Source: Actinocorallia sp. API 0066
GTDB taxonomy: Bacteria > Actinomycetota > Actinomycetes > Streptosporangiales > Streptosporangiaceae
DNA: 64,000 nt
Assembly (NCBI RefSeq): GCF_020991275.1
Contig: NZ_JAJLQY010000004.1
Location: forward strand, 62,001 to 126,000
Direction of reading: 5' to 3'
Each line of letters opens with the position of its first letter. The stretch's first letter is position 1. Positions 46,285 to 53,781 of the stretch are shown one piece after another. A program made the translations under genes and the position numbers. A model generated the notes under the pieces. That model did no database searches. It was not told the DNA's origin and was given only the letters and a program-made list of their open reading frames with translations.

Positions 46285-46653
46285 TCAGGCCGGTTCGGGG
46301 CGGGCGTCGGGGTGCGCGACGACAAAGGCGTCGTAGACCTCGTCGGCGATCTTGCCGCGCGCGCTCACCTCGACGCCCTGGGCGACCGCCCACGCGCGGA
46401 CGTCGGTGTTGGTGTAGCCCTGCAGGCGCGGGGCGGTGTCGGCCGACGACCGGCGGGAGCGGCCCGCCTGCTTGACCTCCGCGGCCCGCTCGACGAACGG
46501 GGCGAGGGAGGCGAGCAGGTCGGTCAGGTGCTTGTAGTTGGCGTCGCCCAGATCGATCGCGTACTTCGAGCCGCCCAGCTCGAACTCTCTCCGGGTGACG
46601 TCCTCACCGTCGTACCCGTCGATGTCGTCCACCACGATGGTCTTGGTTGCCAC
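46285..46653 (-). CDS. lsr2: Lsr2 nucleoid-associated protein
   Basis: This 122-residue protein has the Lsr2 dimerisation N-terminus (MATKTIVVDDIDGYDGEDVTRREFELGGSKYAIDL) and the C-terminal DNA-binding domain (LQGYTNTDVRAWAVAQGVEVSARGKIADEVYDAF) with the RGK-type AT-hook-like loop. Lsr2 binds AT-rich DNA, bridges it and silences acquired genes. It is monocistronic with its own terminator. An unusually AT-rich promoter region lies 1.4 kb away (48090-48150) at the accessory operon and is a plausible local target (inference). Confidence 0.96.
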   Translation of the reverse strand: MATKTIVVDDIDGYDGEDVTRREFELGGSKYAIDLGDANYKHLTDLLASLAPFVERAAEVKQAGRSRRSSADTAPRLQGYTNTDVRAWAVAQGVEVSARGKIADEVYDAFVVAHPDARPEPA

Positions 46654-46892
46654 TGTGAAGATTCACCCTTTCGCTCGTTTGTTCGCAAGCGAGCCTAGTG
46701 GCCCCCGGCCCCCGCTCGCGCCCTGACGCGCACACGGGCCACCCGGCCGCGCCCGCCGATCAACGCTGACCTTGTCGTCGAGATGCCGTCCGAGCGGGGC
46801 GGACATCGCCCGAGCAGGGTGCGCGGGTAGCGTCATGTGGCGTGGGAGTGAGGTCGGGGAACGGCTATTCTGGCCGCGGAACTAGGTACGAA

Positions 46893-46926
46893 CGAGGGCC
46901 CCGGCGGGTGATCGCCGGGGCCCTCG
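46893..46926. terminator. Bidirectional-looking terminator downstream of the DUF397 gene
   Basis: A perfect 14-bp stem CGAGGGCCCCGGCG (46893-46906 with 46913-46926) and a 6-base loop. On the plus strand it is followed by TCTTGTTT, and on the minus strand it lies 13 bases after the DUF397 stop codon. No plus-strand gene was found in 46654-46892 to use it. Confidence 0.8.
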
Positions 46927-46938
46927 TCTTGTTTGCGC

Positions 46939-47136
46939 TTACAGGTGCTTGCCCGCCTTGATGCCGCGGGCGAGGCGCGCAGCCGCTGACGGCGTGAAGA
47001 CGAGGGCGGGGTGGGCGGGGTTCTTGCTGTCGCGGACGGCGACGATACCCGGCACGCTGCCGAGCTCGACGCAGGCGCCGTTGGCCTGGGAGTGGCGGGA
47101 CTTCCGCCAGGTAACGGTGGAGAGATCGGGGGACAT
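46939..47136 (-). CDS. DUF397 family protein
   Basis: This 65-residue protein has the DUF397 signature WRKSRHSQANGACVELGSVPGIVAVRDSKNPAHPALVFTPSAAARL. It is the standard small partner of HTH/DUF5753 regulators, as in BldB/WhiJ-like gene sets, and is thought to act with or against the regulator. It lies 38 bases downstream of the HTH gene on the same strand, with its own GGCAGGTAAA-type ribosome site. Confidence 0.93.
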   Translation of the reverse strand: MSPDLSTVTWRKSRHSQANGACVELGSVPGIVAVRDSKNPAHPALVFTPSAAARLARGIKAGKHL

Positions 47137-47174
47137 GGGTTTACCTGCCTTCGGAACTAGGCTGACACAGGTGC

Positions 47175-48029
47175 TTAGCCCGCCGCCTCTGCGAGGAGCG
47201 CGCGGCTCTGGGCCGGGCGCAGCGCGTTGGCGGCGAGCAAGCGGTGTGTTCGCCGGTAGACCTCCACCTGCGCGGCGGCCTCGACGAACAGTTCACTTCC
47301 CAGTATCTCCACGTACGCGCATGGATCGTCCTCGGCGGAAGGAAAAGCTAGCACGGTGAAGCTGCTCAGCGTGCCTGGGTGAGCACCGACGCTCTGCGGG
47401 ATCACCTGGAAGACGACGTTCGGCAGGTTTGTGATCTCCAGCAGGTGCCGTAGTTGCTCACGGTGCACGCGTTCCCCGCCGACTGGTCGTCGTAGCGCCG
47501 CCTCGTCGATGATCGCCCACAGCTTGAGCGGGTCGTGCTGTCGGGTGAGGACTTCGGCCCGCGTGGCGCGCAGCTCGGCCTGGGAACGGGCACGTTCTTC
47601 GGTGAGGCCGTACGGACCGGCGACGTTGAGGGCGGTCGCGTAGTCGACGGTCTGGAACAGGCCCGGAACGACGGCGAGTTCGAACGTCTCGGCCTCCTGC
47701 GCTTCGGCTTCCAACCCGATGTACTCCGAGTACGCGTTGGGGATGACGTCGGCGTAGGGACGCCACCATCCGGCCTGTCGGCTCTGCTTGGCCAGGTCTA
47801 CGAGGTAGGCGCGTGTCTCGTCGTCCACCTCGTAGAGAGTGCACAGGTCCTCGATGTCACGCGGGCTGGGCCGCTTCCACTCGTTCCGCTCCATCCGGGC
47901 GATCTTGCCGACCGTCCAGCCCAGGCTTCTGTCGACCTGGACCGCGTGCAGCTTCCTGTCTTCGCGGATTTTGCGGAGGCGGGCGGACAGGCGACGACGC
48001 CTCAGCGTGGGGCTGAACTGTTCCGGCAC
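47175..48029 (-). CDS. HTH/DUF5753 transcriptional regulator of the accessory operon
   Basis: This 284-residue protein begins at GTG 48029 (GGGAGG six bases upstream) with VPEQFSPTLRRRRLSARLRKIREDRKLHAVQVDRSLGWTVGKIARMERNEWKRPS, an XRE helix-turn-helix. The DUF5753 domain follows (EAQEAETFELAVVPGLFQTVDYATAL, and a VVFQVIPQSVGAHPG strand). It is paired with DUF397. It is divergent from the five-gene operon starting at 48194 across an AT-rich promoter region, so it is the likely regulator of that operon. Confidence 0.9.
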   Translation of the reverse strand: MPEQFSPTLRRRRLSARLRKIREDRKLHAVQVDRSLGWTVGKIARMERNEWKRPSPRDIEDLCTLYEVDDETRAYLVDLAKQSRQAGWWRPYADVIPNAYSEYIGLEAEAQEAETFELAVVPGLFQTVDYATALNVAGPYGLTEERARSQAELRATRAEVLTRQHDPLKLWAIIDEAALRRPVGGERVHREQLRHLLEITNLPNVVFQVIPQSVGAHPGTLSSFTVLAFPSAEDDPCAYVEILGSELFVEAAAQVEVYRRTHRLLAANALRPAQSRALLAEAAG

Positions 48030-48089
48030 GCGTACCTCCCGTGTGTCCAGTGGTGCGGCGAGCCTACCGGGGTTCATGTAATCGGACAT

Positions 48090-48193
48090 CGCGAAGCAAA
48101 TATACCAAGTCGAATTTCACTATGGCTTTTTTGCTTTGGTTAGTCCATGCTGGGGCCACACCACCTGGTTCCGCGTCCGGCTGACCGGACGCC
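48090..48193. promoter_or_regulatory. AT-rich divergent promoter region with a start-proximal hairpin
   Basis: The 48095-48150 stretch is far richer in A/T than its surroundings (AAATATACCAAG, TGGCTTTTTTGCTTTGG). TATATT can serve as a -10 box toward the regulator. Immediately before the ATG at 48194, GCGTCCGG-CTGA-CCGGACGC (48173-48192) is a perfect hairpin that occupies the ribosome-binding position. Confidence 0.6.
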
Positions 48194-48523
48194 ATGACGG
48201 AAAGCGAAGACGTCATGACACCACCTGGGGAGATCGTCTTCCCTGTTGCACATGGGCCCGGAGACGGCGCAGCGGCGGTTGATCATGCGGTGATCGCTCG
48301 TCTCGACGCCGTCTACGGGATGCGCTGGCGGATCTGGTCGTCTGACGAGGGGCATCTGTACGCCTCGCTCCGTGAGGACCCGCCGAAGGTCGCGAAGGGC
48401 GCCGGGTATCACGGCCTCTACCGCACCGTGCACGCGGCGACCGCGCATGGCCTGGAAGCCGAGTTGGAGAAGCAGGCCGCCGCGATGCTCCGCGTCGAGG
48501 CGTTCGCGGCGGAGGGTCTGTGA
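48194..48523 (+). CDS. Accessory operon gene 1, small tryptophan-motif protein
   Basis: This 109-residue protein contains VYGMRWRIWSSDEGHLYASLREDPPK, the W-x-I-W ... Y-A-x-x-R pattern shared with proteins at 39863, 48523 and 60295. A helical region with HGLEAELEKQAAAML follows. No known family was recognised. The ATG at 48194 directly follows a hairpin; ATG 48215 is an alternative start. Its stop codon overlaps the next start (TGATG). It is divergent from the HTH/DUF5753 gene. Confidence 0.7.
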   Translation: MTESEDVMTPPGEIVFPVAHGPGDGAAAVDHAVIARLDAVYGMRWRIWSSDEGHLYASLREDPPKVAKGAGYHGLYRTVHAATAHGLEAELEKQAAAMLRVEAFAAEGL

Positions 48524-48858
48524 TGCCGCGGCGTGGCAGGGCGTTGCGTCAGGCGCTCGTCGATGAGCTGGAGGCCGATCGGCGGGGCCGCGCGACGGCT
48601 GCGCGGATGGATGCGGCGTTCGGCTGGTGGGTGGTGGTCTACAGCGGTCACCGCGGCACCTACACCGCTTTCCCGCGTCATGGCGTGCCGCCGTGGGGTG
48701 GTGAGCCTCCGGAGGTTGAGGAGGAGCGGGACCCGGCCGTGCTCGCCGCTCGGATGCGCGGCGTCGACGAGCGGTTGTGCCCCCGGGACCCCGTCGCGGC
48801 CTGGTCTGGCGACAGCCCGCATCTCGCACGGCAGGCGCCAGCGGCCGTGCGTCCGTGA
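48523..48858 (+). CDS. Accessory operon gene 2, small tryptophan-motif protein
   Basis: This 112-residue protein contains AAFGWWVVVYSGHRGTYTAFPRHGVPPWGGEPPE, a second version of the W-x-V ... Y-x-A-x-x-R motif, flanked by charged helices. ATG 48523 overlaps the upstream stop codon and follows GGAGGG. The C-terminus is Pro/Ala-rich. It has no signal peptide. It probably forms a pair with the product of the upstream gene. Function unknown. Confidence 0.68.
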   Translation: MPRRGRALRQALVDELEADRRGRATAARMDAAFGWWVVVYSGHRGTYTAFPRHGVPPWGGEPPEVEEERDPAVLAARMRGVDERLCPRDPVAAWSGDSPHLARQAPAAVRP

Positions 48859-48925
48859 TCGGGGTGCGGCGGCCGTGCGCGGACGGCCGTCGCGCCCGCA
48901 CTCAACGCGAGCAGGGAGGTAAGAC

Positions 48926-50044
48926 GTGATCGGTCTGGACGACTTGCGAGAACCGCTTGACCTGGCGATCCACAGCTCGGCGGGACGGCTGTGGCCGGGC
49001 GCGGGGGTGGAGATGGGCGAGCTGGCCCCGAGCGTGACGAGTTACGTGCGGCCCGTCCGGGTGACGGGGTTGGCGCCGATGTACGCGAAGGTGTCGGTGC
49101 TGGGTTCGTCCCTCGTGTCGGTGCTGCGGGGCGTGCATGGCGACGCGGTGCGGGTGGCGGCCGCTCTCCCGGTGTATCTGGCGGAAGCGGACTGTCTGGT
49201 GGCGCGGGAGGCGGCCCAGTTGCGGGCGCTGGCGCGTGTCGGCGTGCCGGTGTGCGAGGTCGCGGGCCAGGCGGGCGGCGTCCTGTTCACTCGCGCGGTC
49301 GACGGCCCTACCCTGGCCGACCTGGTCGAGGTGTCCCCGGACGCGGCGGGGGATCGCCTGCTGGCCGTGACGGCCGAGCTGTCCAGGCTTCCCCGCGTGG
49401 CCTCCGCGCTGGGGCCGGTGGCGATCCCGGAGCGGGACATCGTCGCGATCTTCGCGCGGAAGTTCGATCGGGGCGGGGCGCGGGAGTATCTGGCGGCGAC
49501 CGGGCACGGGGCGGTGCTGGAGCCGGTAGTGGCGCAACTCGTCGCCCTGCGCGGGGTCCTGTACGAGGAGCCTCGGGTGCTGCAGTACGGCGACCTCAAG
49601 CCGGAGCACGTGTTCTTCCCGCACGGTTTCGCCGCGCGGCCGGTGTTCGTCGACCCGGGAGTGATGGCGGCGCACCCGTGGAGCGACCTCGCGCGGCTGA
49701 CCTCGCGGATCGGTCTCCTGGCGATGGCCGGACGGGCGCCGGCCCGGGTGCGGGGTGTGATGGTGGACGAGCTCGTCGCGCACCTGCACAGCTTCGGGCC
49801 CAGCGACAGCGACGGGGTGCGGGACCTGGTGCTGCTGTGGCTGATGGACACGGTCAACATCCTCACCACCTACTGCACCGCCCCCGAGGGCCTGCCCGTC
49901 GGGCGGCACGCCGTCGAGGTGCGCGCGGCCGCGGAGGTGGTGTGCGGCTTCCTGGCCGAGGCGACCGCTGAGCTGCCGGTGCGGCAGCAGTCACGCGTCC
50001 TGTTCGCGCGGGTGGTCGCGGCGCTTGCCGGGGCGGCGCGGTGA
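48926..50044 (+). CDS. Accessory operon gene 3, kinase/phosphotransferase-fold protein
   Basis: This 372-residue protein has a kinase-like order. MYAKVSVLGSSLVSVLRG near 50 is a candidate ATP-binding strand with Lys. CLVAREAAQLRALARVGVPVCEV (about 90-112) resembles the alphaC region, LFTRAVDGPTLADL the hinge. The catalytic loop-like YGDLKPEHVFFPHGF is near 218, followed by VFVDPGVMAAHPWSDLARL in place of DFG/DFD. The HxD histidine is replaced by Gly, as in several APH-like proteins. The substrate is unknown. GTG 48926 follows GGGAGG. Its end overlaps the next gene (GTGA). Confidence 0.7.
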   Translation: MIGLDDLREPLDLAIHSSAGRLWPGAGVEMGELAPSVTSYVRPVRVTGLAPMYAKVSVLGSSLVSVLRGVHGDAVRVAAALPVYLAEADCLVAREAAQLRALARVGVPVCEVAGQAGGVLFTRAVDGPTLADLVEVSPDAAGDRLLAVTAELSRLPRVASALGPVAIPERDIVAIFARKFDRGGAREYLAATGHGAVLEPVVAQLVALRGVLYEEPRVLQYGDLKPEHVFFPHGFAARPVFVDPGVMAAHPWSDLARLTSRIGLLAMAGRAPARVRGVMVDELVAHLHSFGPSDSDGVRDLVLLWLMDTVNILTTYCTAPEGLPVGRHAVEVRAAAEVVCGFLAEATAELPVRQQSRVLFARVVAALAGAAR

Positions 50045-50937
50045 CCGGGGCGCGGGTGGGCATCATCGGCGCGGGCGCCGTCGGGCAAACGGTCGCGGCG
50101 CTGCTGGCTGCCGCCGACTGGTGCGAGCGGTTGCAGATCGCTTCGGGATCGGCGGCATCGGCGGGGGCGCTCGTCGCGGACGTGGAGGACATGCTGTTCC
50201 AGACGGGCAACCCCACCCTGGTCCAGGCCGTGCCGGTCGAGGAGATGCGGGCGGCCGACGCCGTCGTGGTCTGCCCGCGCGCGCCGTTCGCGAACGGCGC
50301 GACGGTCGACGTGCGGATGGCGGGCATCCACGCGAACGCGCCGGTGATCGTCGCGCTGGGCCGCGCCCTGGCCGACTACAGCGGTGTCGTCGTCGTCGTG
50401 ACGAATCCCGTCGATGTGATGGCGGCGCTGTTCGCGCGGGCGTCCGGCGCGCCGACCGTGTTCGGGGTCGGCGCGGCCACCGACACCGCGCGTTACCGTG
50501 GGGCGCTCGCGCGGCACCTGGGCGTGTCCGTGCCCGAGGTGAGCGGGCGTGTGATCGGTGAGCACGGGGACGGCGCCGTGGTCTGCGCCCACGCCACCCG
50601 CGTCCGCGGGCAGCCGGTGCAGGTGCCGGTCGAGGAGATCCGGGCCGAGTTGCGCGCGCGGCCGGGCCGGATCAGCGCCGGGATCGGCCGGACCCGCATC
50701 GGCCCCGCCGGAGCCGTCCTGCTGGCCCTGCGCGCCGCGCTCGGCCTCCACGACACCGTCATCGAGCTGTCGGTGCCCGCCGAAGGGGTCGGCGTGCCCG
50801 TCAAGTTCAGCGGCGGCGTCCCGACCGTCCTCCCGGTGGATCTCGCGCCGGAAGAAATACGCGCGCTCGCCATCTCGCGGGCGCGCCAGCGCCGCCTCGT
50901 CGGCGAACTGTCCCATCTCCTGGAAGGAACCCCATGA
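50041..50937 (+). CDS. Accessory operon gene 4, lactate/malate-dehydrogenase-like enzyme
   Basis: This 298-residue protein has the LDH/MDH fold: RVGIIGAGAVGQTVAALL (NAD loop, about 5-22), VVVVVTNPVDVM near 120, the Asp-Arg pair in TDTARYRGAL near 150, and the catalytic His in IGEHGDGAV near 175. The substrate-specificity loop (CPRAPFANGATVDVR) differs from both LDH and MDH, which have conserved Arg residues, so an unusual 2-hydroxy acid is likely. It overlaps both neighbours by four bases, so it is made in step with the kinase-fold and HprK-like proteins. Confidence 0.8.
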   Translation: MTGARVGIIGAGAVGQTVAALLAAADWCERLQIASGSAASAGALVADVEDMLFQTGNPTLVQAVPVEEMRAADAVVVCPRAPFANGATVDVRMAGIHANAPVIVALGRALADYSGVVVVVTNPVDVMAALFARASGAPTVFGVGAATDTARYRGALARHLGVSVPEVSGRVIGEHGDGAVVCAHATRVRGQPVQVPVEEIRAELRARPGRISAGIGRTRIGPAGAVLLALRAALGLHDTVIELSVPAEGVGVPVKFSGGVPTVLPVDLAPEEIRALAISRARQRRLVGELSHLLEGTP

Positions 50938-52031
50938 CCCACACCGCCCACATCAGCGCCGCCGGGTACAGCGTCACGGTCTCCGCCACGACCTCGGCCG
51001 TCACGCAGTGGTGCCTGCGGTACTTCGGCGACTGGTGGACGGCGACCTCCGGCGCCCACACCATCGAACGGCTGATCAACGCGAACGTGAACGCCTCCCT
51101 CGCCCAGGGCGCGGTCGACTACGTCCAGGCCATCGCGACGGACGAGGTGGAGTACGCCGCCGCGCCGATGGTCTACGCCCGCGACCCCGAAGGCGTGGTA
51201 CACGCGGCCCAGGGCGGCACCGCCTACCGGTACGTGCCGGCCAGCGGCGGCCTGCGACTCATCGGCGCGGACGCCGTCGAGGTCGCGACGGCCACCGCGC
51301 GGCTCGCGCGCGAGATGCTGCGCGGGCGACTCGTGGACGACGGGTGGCTGATCCTGCACGCCTCGGCCGCGGTCGGCCCCGGCGGGCAGACCGTGCTGGC
51401 GCTCGGCGACAAAGGCGCCGGGAAGACCACGACCGCGCTCCTGCTCGCCTCCCTGCCCGGATGGTCGCTCCTGGCGAACGACCGCGTGTTCGTCCGCCTC
51501 GACGGCGAAGGGGGGGTGGACGTGCTGCCGTGGCCGTCAGCGGCCGCGATCGGGTTCGGGCTCCTGGAGGCGTGCGGCTGGTACGAACCGGTCCGCGCGA
51601 GGCTGCGGGACGGCCTGGAGATGCACCCGACACAGAAGCGGCAGGTGACCGACGCGCTCCTGGCCGGGGACCGGACGCCCCTGCGCAAGCCCAACGGGCA
51701 CGAGCTCAAGCCGCAGTTCTGGCCCGACCAGCTCCGCGACTGGCTCGGCCTGCCACTGGCCCGCCACGGCACCGCCACCCACGTCCTGTTCCCCCAGATC
51801 CAGCCGGACGCCTCCCCCGGCGGGCTCAGCGCCCCCCGCGACATCACCGCGGCGGACATGTTCACACCCGCCCAGGACGACCGCTACCCCGACATCTTCG
51901 GGATCGCCCCGGTCACCCCCGATCCCACCGACGCCGTGCTGGCGCACCTCAAGAAACTGCCCCGCTTCGGAGTCCTACTCGAGCGCGAGGTGGACGCCAA
52001 CCGGGCGTTCCTGTCGCACCTGACCCTCTGA
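50934..52031 (+). CDS. Accessory operon gene 5, HprK-like P-loop protein
   Basis: This 365-residue protein has the HprK/HPr-kinase-like P-loop LALGDKGAGKTTTALLLASL near 155-175, preceded by GWLILHASAAVGPGGQ and followed by LLANDRVFVRLDG, the HprK-type Asp strand. The N-terminal 130 residues are unrecognised. It lacks the HprK signature for HPr-Ser phosphorylation, and no HPr is nearby. Relatives with this reduced domain modify serines in some RiPP peptides or act in other small-molecule pathways. It is the last gene, with ATGA coupling and GGAAGGA upstream. Confidence 0.75.
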   Translation: MTHTAHISAAGYSVTVSATTSAVTQWCLRYFGDWWTATSGAHTIERLINANVNASLAQGAVDYVQAIATDEVEYAAAPMVYARDPEGVVHAAQGGTAYRYVPASGGLRLIGADAVEVATATARLAREMLRGRLVDDGWLILHASAAVGPGGQTVLALGDKGAGKTTTALLLASLPGWSLLANDRVFVRLDGEGGVDVLPWPSAAAIGFGLLEACGWYEPVRARLRDGLEMHPTQKRQVTDALLAGDRTPLRKPNGHELKPQFWPDQLRDWLGLPLARHGTATHVLFPQIQPDASPGGLSAPRDITAADMFTPAQDDRYPDIFGIAPVTPDPTDAVLAHLKKLPRFGVLLEREVDANRAFLSHLTL

Positions 52032-52049
52032 CGGCACGCCCCTTCGACC

Positions 52050-52083
52050 GGCGCGGCGGCCCGCTCCATCGGGCCGCCGCGCC
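52050..52083 (+). terminator. Terminator of the five-gene accessory operon
   Basis: A perfect 14-bp stem GGCGCGGCGGCCCG (52050-52063 with 52070-52083) and a 6-base loop begin 18 bases after the HprK-like stop codon. Confidence 0.88.
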
Positions 52084-52110
52084 ACCCCGAAGATCAGGGC
52101 GGACCGTGCG

Positions 52111-52200
52111 GTGACGGTGCTGCGGGTGGTCACGGCGGGGGATCCGGTGTTCACCCGCCCGGTCGGGCCTGAGGCGGTGCAGGGCGTCCAGGTCGGCGCA
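52111..52200 (+). pseudogene. Possible peptide deformylase N-terminal fragment
   Basis: A GTG frame at 52111 reads TVLRVVTAGDPVFTRPV, very like the first residues of peptide deformylases (IVTAGDPVLRxPA). It then loses similarity and runs antisense into the acyl-CoA synthetase gene. No catalytic GxGxAAxQ or HExxH motif follows. It may be a truncated remnant at the junction of the accessory operon with the flanking gene; the match is short. Confidence 0.3.
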
Positions 52201-52215
52201 CCACGGCCCAGGTCG

Positions 52216-53781
52216 TCACGCGTCCCGGAGCCGGTCGAGGGCGGCGCGGCGGAGCGCGGGCCTGTCCACGCCGCCCGTCGCGGTGCGCGGCAGCTCGGCG
52301 ACCCGCCAGACGGTGCGCGGCGCCTGGAAGGCCGCCAGGCGGGCGGCGGCGCGGGCGACGAGCCGGTCCACCGGGCCGCCGCCGACGACGAACGCCGCCG
52401 GGACCGCGCCGAGCCGCTCGTGCGGGATGCCGACGACGGCCGCCTCAGCCGCGCCCGCGACGGCGGTGAGGACGTGCTCTACCTCCGCCGGGTAGACGTT
52501 GAGGCCGCCGACGACGATGACGTCCGCGAGCCGGTCCACAACGCGGAGCCTTCCGGCGGCGTCCAGTTCGCCGACGTCGCCGGTGCGCAGCCAGCCGCCG
52601 GTGAACGCGGCGGCCGTCGCTTCCGGATCGTCGAGGTAGCCCGCCATCACGCCGGGGCCGCGCAGCAGGACCTCACCGGGGCCGTCGGGCGCGTCCACCC
52701 TTACCGCGACGCCCGGCAGGGGCCGTCCCGACGTCTCGGCGGCGGCCGAGGGGGGATCGTCCGAGCGGGTCATCGTGCAGACGCCGCCCGCCTCCGTCAG
52801 GCCGTAGGCGGTGAGGACGTGGCGGACGCCGAGCCTGTCGCGCAGCGCCGTCACGAGGTCGCGCGGCACCACGGCCGCGCCGGTCACCGCGACCCGGACG
52901 GTGCCGCGCGGCATCGCGGGCTCGGCGAGCAGCGCCCGGAACAGCGCGGGCGGCCCGTGCAGCACGGTCGCGCTCCGGGCCGCGACGGCGGCGGCCAGCG
53001 CCGCCGGATCGGGCGACGGCACCGGCAGCACCGTCGCGCCCGCCACCGCGCTCGCGAGCAGGCCGCTCTTGTGCCCGCCCAGGTGCGCGAAGGGCGCGAC
53101 GACCGGGTACACGTCACCGGCGCGCAGTCCCGTGACGCGCACCCACGAGCGGGTCGTCGCGACCAGGCCGCCGTGCCGGAGCAGCGCCCCCTTGGGACGT
53201 CCGGTGGTGCCGGAGGTGAACTGGACGTGGCTGACGTCGTCGGGGCCGAGCGCCGCCAGCCTGCGTGTCACCTCGGTGTCGCCGCGCGCGCCCTCGGCCA
53301 GCTCCACGGGCGTGACGACCGTCGGGGCGCCTGCCCCGGCGGGGCGCTCGGGCCCCCGCGTCACCTCGGCGTGGCCGTCGGCGACGAGGGCGGCGGCCTC
53401 GGCCGCGCGGGCGGCGAGCGGGGCGCCGTCAGGGGCCGTGCCCCCGGCGACGAGGACGCGGGTGTGGGAGCGCAGGAGGAGGTCCGCGGCTTCGGTGGGA
53501 CGGTAGCCGGTGTGCAGGGGAACGATCCGCGCGCCCGCGCAGAGGGCGCCGTAGGCGGCGACGGCCCAGTCGGCGCCGTTCGGCAGCCAGACGCCGACGC
53601 TCTCGCCCGGCGCGACGCCCAGCGCGACGAGCCGCGCGGCCGCCGTCAGCGCCGCCTCCCACAGCTCCGGATAGGTGAGCCGCACGCCGTCGCCGCGCAG
53701 CGCCGGACGCGTCGGATGCTCCCGCGCCGTCCGCTCCAGAACACCGGGGAGCGTGTCGCTATGCGCGCGGGTACCTGTCAC
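52216..53781 (-). CDS. AMP-binding acyl-CoA synthetase lacking the A10 lysine
   Basis: This 521-residue protein has the AMP-binding P-loop FTSGTTGRPKGALLRH, TAYGLTEAGG, GWLRTGDVGELD and VVDRLADVIVVGGLNVYPAEVE. The C-terminal motif reads LPRTATGGVDRPALRR where family members have TGK. The lysine needed for adenylation is therefore replaced by glycine, and activity in the first half-reaction may be low or altered. GTG 53781 is used. It lies convergent to the accessory operon and upstream of a repeat locus. Confidence 0.87.
   Translation of the reverse strand: MTGTRAHSDTLPGVLERTAREHPTRPALRGDGVRLTYPELWEAALTAAARLVALGVAPGESVGVWLPNGADWAVAAYGALCAGARIVPLHTGYRPTEAADLLLRSHTRVLVAGGTAPDGAPLAARAAEAAALVADGHAEVTRGPERPAGAGAPTVVTPVELAEGARGDTEVTRRLAALGPDDVSHVQFTSGTTGRPKGALLRHGGLVATTRSWVRVTGLRAGDVYPVVAPFAHLGGHKSGLLASAVAGATVLPVPSPDPAALAAAVAARSATVLHGPPALFRALLAEPAMPRGTVRVAVTGAAVVPRDLVTALRDRLGVRHVLTAYGLTEAGGVCTMTRSDDPPSAAAETSGRPLPGVAVRVDAPDGPGEVLLRGPGVMAGYLDDPEATAAAFTGGWLRTGDVGELDAAGRLRVVDRLADVIVVGGLNVYPAEVEHVLTAVAGAAEAAVVGIPHERLGAVPAAFVVGGGPVDRLVARAAARLAAFQAPRTVWRVAELPRTATGGVDRPALRRAALDRLRDA

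Follow-up and report, generated by a model that had tools for sequence, protein, structure and literature searches.

What might a short operon do that places a reductase between two kinases of different folds? The question is raised by a locus of Actinocorallia sp. API 0066, which lies in a window of 64,000 nucleotides (the whole stretch of DNA analysed; contig NZ_JAJLQY010000004.1, positions 62,001 to 126,000). Three plus-strand genes follow one another there with 4-nt overlaps: KIN, a predicted kinase of the aminoglycoside-phosphotransferase (APH) fold (48926-50044), LDH, a putative reductase of the lactate/malate dehydrogenase (MDH) family (50041-50937), and HPRK, a kinase of the HprK/PEP carboxykinase (PEPCK) superfamily (50934-52031). 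A first-pass annotation, made from the sequence alone, knew of no pathway with this combination, and we also found no description of it in the literature searched, which took in few subscription journals and no bioRxiv preprints. As described here, the three enzymes form a recurring cassette, and we favor, at a probability of about 0.4, a reading in which the two kinases and the reductase convert an anionic 2-oxo acid to a phosphorylated 2-hydroxy acid.

First, KIN, LDH and HPRK co-occur far above chance. Profile searches for each enzyme in one set of 295 Streptomyces genomes (E 1e-40) found HPRK in 35, LDH in 21 and KIN in 19 of them; these counts are lower bounds, given this threshold and the few candidates scored per genome, and they include partial HPRK copies. 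HPRK was present in all 21 LDH genomes, and both partners were present in 18 of the 19 KIN genomes, the remaining one (G751) having KIN only. LDH was never found alone, LDH and HPRK occurred without KIN in 3 genomes, and HPRK was alone in 14 of its 35 genomes (some copies partial). Over the 295 genomes, uncorrected for shared ancestry, the Fisher p-values are 3e-23 for LDH with HPRK, 3e-18 for KIN with HPRK and 9e-25 for KIN with LDH. The genome-neighborhood check that the first-pass annotation had proposed thus recovered a recurring cassette and ruled out that the three genes fail to co-occur elsewhere. In a separate observation, the S. violaceusniger plasmid pSTRVI02 (L067) carries KIN with neither LDH nor HPRK.

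Second, the cassette is patchy, borne on both plasmids and chromosomes, and found mainly in Streptomyces. Among 72,556 plasmid records, LDH matched 25, KIN 21 and HPRK 29, all from Streptomyces; in the rows listed, KIN is annotated as phosphotransferase or hypothetical protein, and HPRK either carries the label hypothetical protein or has no annotation. Yet all three genes are present together in 18 of the 295 sampled Streptomyces genomes and in some twenty plasmids. The best 80 of 109 HPRK relatives on genome contigs come from Streptomyces (78), Actinacidiphila (1) and Sinosporangium (1), and since these 80 loci were found via HPRK, loci with a broken HPRK are under-sampled. In the window's own family, HPRK was matched in 48 of 341 genomes at E 1e-3, with strong full-length matches only in the window and in genomes G330 and G006, and at class level in 9 of 394 genomes at E 1e-20, the window's own included. 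In the HPRK tree, copies borne on plasmids, on complete chromosomes (L088, L117) and on large contigs are intermixed, and the plasmid copy L070 is almost identical to L140 on a 6-kb contig. HPRK had zero matches in 50,697 phage records; two IMG/VR contigs were matched, each with all three genes, which is insufficient to call the cassette phage cargo. Genome G006 carries a full cassette, a second HPRK with an internal stop and a short HPRK fragment on three contigs (C77, C39 and C55; L058, L059 and L064).

Third, the arrangement of the genes is constant. Genes were called with our own GC-frame caller, which misses some (e.g. the regulator of L060). L162 is the same contig as L058; it is counted twice among the 101 loci collected and in the PIMT and radical SAM counts given below, and was removed once in the tree, order and gap, downstream-gene, small-gene-cluster and regulator counts. 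All 62 loci in which the three genes are clear and separate have them in the order KIN-LDH-HPRK and in one direction, with gaps of at most 10 nt between KIN and LDH in 50 and between LDH and HPRK in 51 of the 62. At 8 of the 101 loci, LDH and HPRK form a single in-frame protein in which the checked motifs of both are kept, and all eight fusions fall in one well-supported 12-row group of the HPRK tree, together with four unfused, broken or solo relatives; a ninth fusion (L124) is split, and L132 has KIN and LDH in one open reading frame (ORF). Constant co-occurrence, gene overlap and the fused LDH-HPRK proteins all point to enzymes that act on one substrate in succession. Downstream of HPRK, the next called gene has the opposite orientation in 33 of 76 loci, and in 13 more it is co-directional but more than 300 nt away, so that no further enzyme seems to be part of the operon at many loci, and this end of the operon at HPRK suggests that the product itself is active.

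What the enzymes may act on can be approached through their conserved residues, which were counted in aligned rows chosen for length and score (72 of HPRK, 58 of KIN and 51 of LDH); this selection excluded copies that were fused, broken or short, as well as some near-duplicates. The motifs pointed out in the first-pass annotation (the GDLKPEH loop of KIN, the His and the Asp-Arg pair of LDH and the P-loop of HPRK) are present and nearly invariant in these rows, and the three folds and the altered LDH loop are as it had claimed. The LDH of the window matches Ldh_1_N (PF00056, E 1e-15) and, by phmmer, 1hye (E 7e-23), and it shares with the L-lactate/malate dehydrogenases of the 1hye family the match to the Rossmann-type NAD domain and equivalents of the catalytic residues; its identity with ordinary homologues found in relatives is 29-35%. 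Its scores stay below the NCBIfam cut-offs (malate dehydrogenase subfamily, the best, 118.9 against 283 bits; L-lactate dehydrogenase, 100.1 against 303.55). Arg92, Asp148, Arg151 and His175 are found in 51 of 51 rows, and we take them to be the equivalents of the textbook Arg109, Asp168, Arg171 and His195. Three extra arginines, Arg80, Arg217 and Arg219, are also found in all 51 rows, whereas among 17 ordinary LDH/MDH rows (L003 and L010 of which look out of frame) Gly stands at 80 in all 13 that align there, and Arg stands at 217 in 3 and at 219 in none. The specificity loop before Arg92 is 3 residues longer than in the MDH-type rows, and that of the homologues L014 and L023 is longer still. 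Position 36, where NADP enzymes carry a basic residue, is Arg in 42 of the 51 rows. LDH differs from L-lactate/malate dehydrogenases by its extra arginines, its altered loop, its operon membership and its fusion to a kinase and, judged by sequence, is a member of the L-2-hydroxy-acid dehydrogenase superfamily that is not placed as LDH or MDH proper. The extra arginines, which putatively face the substrate, point to an anionic, perhaps phosphorylated, 2-oxo acid, and the intact carboxylate-binding Arg points to a free acid rather than a peptide.

For both kinases, the structure prediction proposed earlier gave confident models, with APH-type and PEPCK-like folds. The AF2 model of KIN has a pLDDT of 94.3, and its best solved folds by Foldseek are APH(3')-VIII (E 5.5e-6) and methylthioribose kinase; the kinase TvaE, which acts on a ribosomally synthesized and post-translationally modified peptide (RiPP), is sixth in the list, the corramycin phosphotransferase is also present, and LxmK stands lower. 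The KIN of the window has no Pfam and no NCBIfam match, and 21 of 41 KIN relatives match PF01636 at E up to 0.01. Its residues Lys55 and His228 are found in 58 of 58 rows and Glu95, Asp223 (of GDLKPEH) and Asp243 in 57 of 58 each. As modelled, KIN is a kinase of the APH fold; it shares the fold and the catalytic Lys, Glu, Asp and Asp with APH-type kinases (APH(3')-VIII, methylthioribose kinase, TvaE and the corramycin kinase) and differs from them by His for Asn in the catalytic loop and DPG for DFG.

HPRK is a kinase of the HprK/PEPCK superfamily, nearest to PEPCK in fold and nearest to HPr kinases in sequence. Its AF2 model (pLDDT 94.9) has a best Foldseek match to PEPCK (E 1.2e-7, TM-score 0.41 by query length), and all 50 listed of 109 Foldseek matches at E 0.001 are PEP carboxykinases. 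In the profile search, HPr kinases are the sole solved relatives at E 0.01 (aligned to 1jb1 and 1ko7), and HprK-related kinase B is matched by 57 of 58 HPRK members at E up to 0.01; HprK_rel_A is among the profile matches as well. The window's HPRK has no Pfam match, and its NCBIfam matches are far below cut-off (HprK_rel_B, 19.4 against 200 bits). The P-loop (158-166), the ANDR motif (181-184) and the preceding His142 are its motifs, and His142, Lys164 and Asp183 are found in 72 of 72 rows. Compared with HPr kinase, HprK-related A and B, FomB and PEP carboxykinase, HPRK has in common the P-loop, the second acidic motif, the preceding His and the PEPCK-like fold, and it differs by its own N-terminal domain, by ANDR for ADDR and by the sub-cutoff NCBIfam scores. 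Family descriptions link HprK-related kinase B to the GAK system and CofD; the literature search found nothing on this link. A distant HPRK-like protein with about 28-31% identity was seen at L062 (G269:C4), in a stretch in which KIN and LDH were not found by tblastn at E 0.01.

Using these assignments, we infer that the cassette is a short self-contained biosynthetic pathway, and we infer its substrate, step order, control and biological effect as follows. KIN would phosphorylate a hydroxylated central metabolite; LDH, probably using NADPH in most relatives, would reduce the 2-oxo group of the anionic acid to an L-2-hydroxy acid; and HPRK would phosphorylate the new hydroxyl, aided by proximity as in the clade with the LDH fusion. 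This would yield a 2-hydroxy acid with one or perhaps two phosphates, which could serve inside the cell as a signal or an antimetabolite under the control of the neighboring regulator. Of the products that such a set could make, a phosphorylated 2-hydroxy acid would be the simplest. It has an analogue, and an analogue only, in the archaeal 2-phospho-L-lactate branch of F420 synthesis, the likeness being a phosphorylated 2-hydroxy acid; PMC8498797 names a lactate kinase that is still unidentified, CofB, as the proposed source of 2-phospho-L-lactate in this synthesis. The most specific form of the proposal, in which LDH acts on a KIN-derived phosphorylated 2-oxo acid, HPRK phosphorylates the resulting free 2-hydroxy acid, and the bisphosphorylated product is a signal or antimetabolite under developmental control, is unlikely to hold in all its parts. 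To the best of our knowledge, no member of the HprK/PEPCK superfamily is known to phosphorylate a free 2-hydroxy acid. If the product is a phosphorylated 2-hydroxy acid, HprK/PEPCK kinases would gain a new type of substrate, and WhiJ/BldB-type switches would be linked to a small molecule. As three enzymes are seemingly enough, are partly fused in one clade and move between settings, straightforward expression and assays should give access to the product.

Several points weigh against the phosphorylated 2-hydroxy acid. The number of phosphorylations and the order of the pathway are guesses from gene order. The usual kinase catalytic loop has Asn after the catalytic Asp, and KIN has His228 in place of this Asn in all 58 rows. 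Both kinase models match solved folds with low TM-scores (about 0.3-0.5, by query length), which places them at superfamily level only. At position 36, the LDH of the window carries Gly where most relatives have Arg. HPRK stands without KIN and LDH in the 14 of 35 Streptomyces genomes already mentioned, some of them with partial copies, and selection on it is only mildly relaxed in a weak test; it may have a role of its own. In addition, RiPP-type methyltransferases just downstream of the cassette, at 15 of the 101 loci, fit peptide tailoring.

The last point deserves closer attention, because a modified small peptide and a phosphorylated hydroxy acid were the two outcomes offered by the first-pass annotation; the hydroxy acid is our leading reading, and the peptide has become its rival. 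KIN and HPRK would phosphorylate, and LDH would reduce, a ribosomal peptide from an adjoining PIMT-containing cluster, of the FxLD lanthipeptide, graspetide or radical-SAM/methyltransferase type. A co-directional PIMT-like methyltransferase gene stands at +1 to +3 in the 15 loci and at -1 to -3, on either strand, in 2 (assigned by sequence cluster, with no matched control), and a radical SAM gene, also assigned by cluster, is immediately downstream in 9 of the 101. For example, L085 has an FxLD lanthipeptide set after HPRK (TIGR04364, TIGR04363 and TIGR03891, all above cut-off), L081 has an FxLD methyltransferase after the cassette with a sub-cutoff precursor match, L108 has graspetide precursor and ATP-grasp genes, and L123 has a graspetide set ahead of a solo HPRK. 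The places of TvaE and LxmK in the KIN Foldseek list agree with such a role, as does the phosphorylation of lasso precursors by HPr-kinase homologues described in PMC8498205. However, such a gene is lacking downstream at the majority of the 101 loci, and the downstream RiPP type varies from locus to locus. Small-gene clusters span at most 8 of the 101 loci, as far as called genes of at least 45 aa are concerned, shorter peptides being outside the scan, and LDH retains the Arg that binds a free carboxylate. The proximity may also reflect shared regulatory or integration sites, since DUF397-DUF5753 genes accompany some graspetides (PMC13097080). We therefore regard peptide tailoring as doubtful, although it is the likeliest rival of the 2-hydroxy acid pathway. 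Three other neighbors were seen at single or paired loci. At L109 (13483-15768) and L125 (13454-15733), a protein of about 760 aa follows radical SAM and methyltransferase genes; the L109 copy has no NCBIfam match, and the protein may belong to an unnamed RiPP-like cluster. Downstream of the cassette at L101 (14031-18605) is a 1524-aa helicase-like protein with a sub-cutoff similarity to the anti-phage ProA and a PDC-S37 match, and at L074 (NZ_CP109456.1) the cassette is followed, a few genes on, by one annotated as coenzyme F420-0:L-glutamate ligase.

The losses of KIN and LDH bear on another explanation. Among the best 80 loci, with ORF pieces read separately, 50 have the three genes intact, 17 keep HPRK but lack KIN, with remnants of LDH in 7 of them, and 13 are in other partial states, some of them at contig ends. 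On the HPRK tree, which is a quick one with SH-aLRT support only and in which the label "full" covers every row neither solo nor fused, including those with broken KIN or LDH, the 17 solo rows require as many changes as there are rows (17, against a mean of 15.7 after shuffling), and well-supported branches force no fewer than 13 of these; a separate stable subfamily of solo HPRK was therefore rejected. Of the 17, twelve are among the 72 aligned rows and have all 42 residues that are invariant there, and the other 5 are outside the alignment. The median dN/dS is 0.32 in 14 solo pairs (a solo row with a full relative, but one pair solo-solo and one solo-fused) against 0.24 in 14 non-solo pairs (Mann-Whitney p 0.02), a weak test, since the pairs were hand-chosen and share ancestral history. 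HPRK may outlast its partners either because recombination strips the operon from the regulator side or because HPRK is useful alone. In S. caatingaensis, three nearly identical HPRK copies lie on three contigs of one genome (L094, L096 and L124), one of which has an intact LDH-HPRK fusion, another a split fusion and the third fragmented KIN and LDH; this reflects either real decay or assembly errors.

Such a pattern could arise from a protective or addictive plasmid module, in which the product of KIN and LDH is harmful and HPRK neutralizes it, or which confers resistance to antibiotics or phages. The plasmid matches of all three enzymes, the polar loss (HPRK alone in 14 genomes, HPRK with LDH in 3, KIN only in 1, LDH only in none) and the look of separate losses among the solo HPRKs agree with it. 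On the other hand, replacement of the 5' end by recombination at the regulator also explains the polarity, KIN, LDH and HPRK of the window and of L085 gave 0 PADLOC matches at E 0.01, HPRK is absent from the phage records, and XRE-DUF397 pairs are reported, in PMC10364602, to be pleiotropic regulators that did not behave as toxin-antitoxin systems. We consider this explanation improbable. Its anti-phage form was rejected, given the PADLOC result at two loci, the phage records and the small number of IMG/VR contigs (two).

How the cassette may be controlled is suggested by the regulator genes ahead of it. In the window, an HTH_31 and DUF5753 (WhiJ-type) regulator gene (47175-48089, minus strand; PF19054 E 7.5e-51, PF13560 E 5e-13) is divergent from the operon and is accompanied by a DUF397 (BldB-type) partner (46939-47136, minus strand; PF04149 E 2.3e-19), all three matches exceeding the Pfam cut-off. 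The pair is a WhiJ/BldB-type regulator, a known kind. PMC10294661 describes WhiJ-BldB-AbaA loci of Streptomyces in which an HTH-XRE/DUF5753 gene and its DUF397 partner are divergent from small genes, reports that iosA is preceded by direct repeats to which WhiJ9 binds and that its activation in a bldB mutant requires WhiJ9, and assigns such regulators a function in development. The window resembles these loci in its regulator gene pair and its divergent small genes, and other cassette loci resemble them in their HATPase genes; it differs in that the pair precedes a three-enzyme operon, which has no HATPase gene. The divergent intergenic region (48090-48193) contains or adjoins two 11-nt direct repeats, 48158-48168/48218-48228 and 48188-48198/48209-48219, which may be operator sites, chance origin being also possible. 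At 65 of the 76 loci with all three genes called, an XRE-type regulator lies within 6 genes upstream (TPR-type XRE at 60, DUF5753-type at 7, both at 2), and an AbaA-like HATPase gene is in the same slot at 20 of the 76; these labels come from sequence clusters, the reading of representatives and plasmid annotations, with library scans of some members only.

A developmental regulator also invites a protein-level switch, in which both kinases would act on proteins, LDH would serve as a metabolite sensor or regulated target, and the cassette would control development or metabolism through protein phosphorylation. This would suit the HPr-kinase core of HPRK, including a His aligned with one in HPr kinase, as well as the ability of HPRK to persist alone and the developmental action of WhiJ/BldB-type regulators (PMC10294661). 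However, no common small protein was found in the loci, the best fold matches of KIN are small-molecule kinases, and the catalytic residues of LDH are invariant in the aligned rows, which a pure sensor would not need. Such a switch is thus quite unlikely, and the 2-hydroxy acid pathway is retained.

Two small genes stand between the regulators and the enzymes: small gene 1 (48194-48523, plus strand) and small gene 2 (48520-48858, plus strand), whose GTG start overlaps the stop of small gene 1 (an ATG at 48523 is possible) and which ends 67 nt before KIN. The ORFs and Pfam matches agree with the earlier description of five plus-strand genes joined by overlaps or a short gap and divergent from the regulator pair. 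The suggestion that the two small proteins are precursors or partners of the enzymes, in contrast, found no support, as neither has a match in any other cassette locus examined (tblastn E 0.1). Small protein 1 is matched in 2 of 60 genomes including its own, with a 65% homologue only in contig C16 of G001; small protein 2 is matched in 3 of 60 including its own, with a 57% homologue in the same contig and a weak partial match in G362. In C16, the two homologues form a pair; judged from translations, the gene divergent from them is TPR-XRE-like and the one that follows them is aminotransferase-like. Since the small proteins are absent from other cassette loci and paired beside other enzymes, they probably belong with the regulatory site, outside the conserved cassette. 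As RiPP precursors, too, they found no support, their clear relatives standing beside a different regulator and different enzymes. The two resemble each other weakly, 19 of 500 shuffles scoring equal or higher.

The flanks of the locus may record how it arrived. In the congener G002, the blocks that flank it are conserved, but they lie far apart (at about 4.18 and 2.63 Mb). Left similarity to G002 stops at 46722 and right similarity begins at 52229, and the interval 46722-52229 has no blastn match (E 1e-10) in the 20-kb stretches of G002 around both blocks; this broken synteny would fit an insertion or a rearrangement breakpoint. On the 3' side of HPRK, the hairpin noted earlier as a terminator exists, its two 14-bp arms (52050-52063/52070-52083, plus strand) pairing perfectly around a loop of 6 nt; it has no T-run and is absent from the terminator scan list, so that it is kept as a candidate terminator. 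Near the end of the left syntenic block, a small protein gene (46285-46653, minus strand) is 82-88% conserved in both congeners; the protein is called Lsr2-like from reading it, with no NCBIfam match. Finally, just past the 3' end of the DUF397 gene, a G+C-rich 16-bp hairpin at 46892-46927 is followed on the plus strand by a T-rich stretch.

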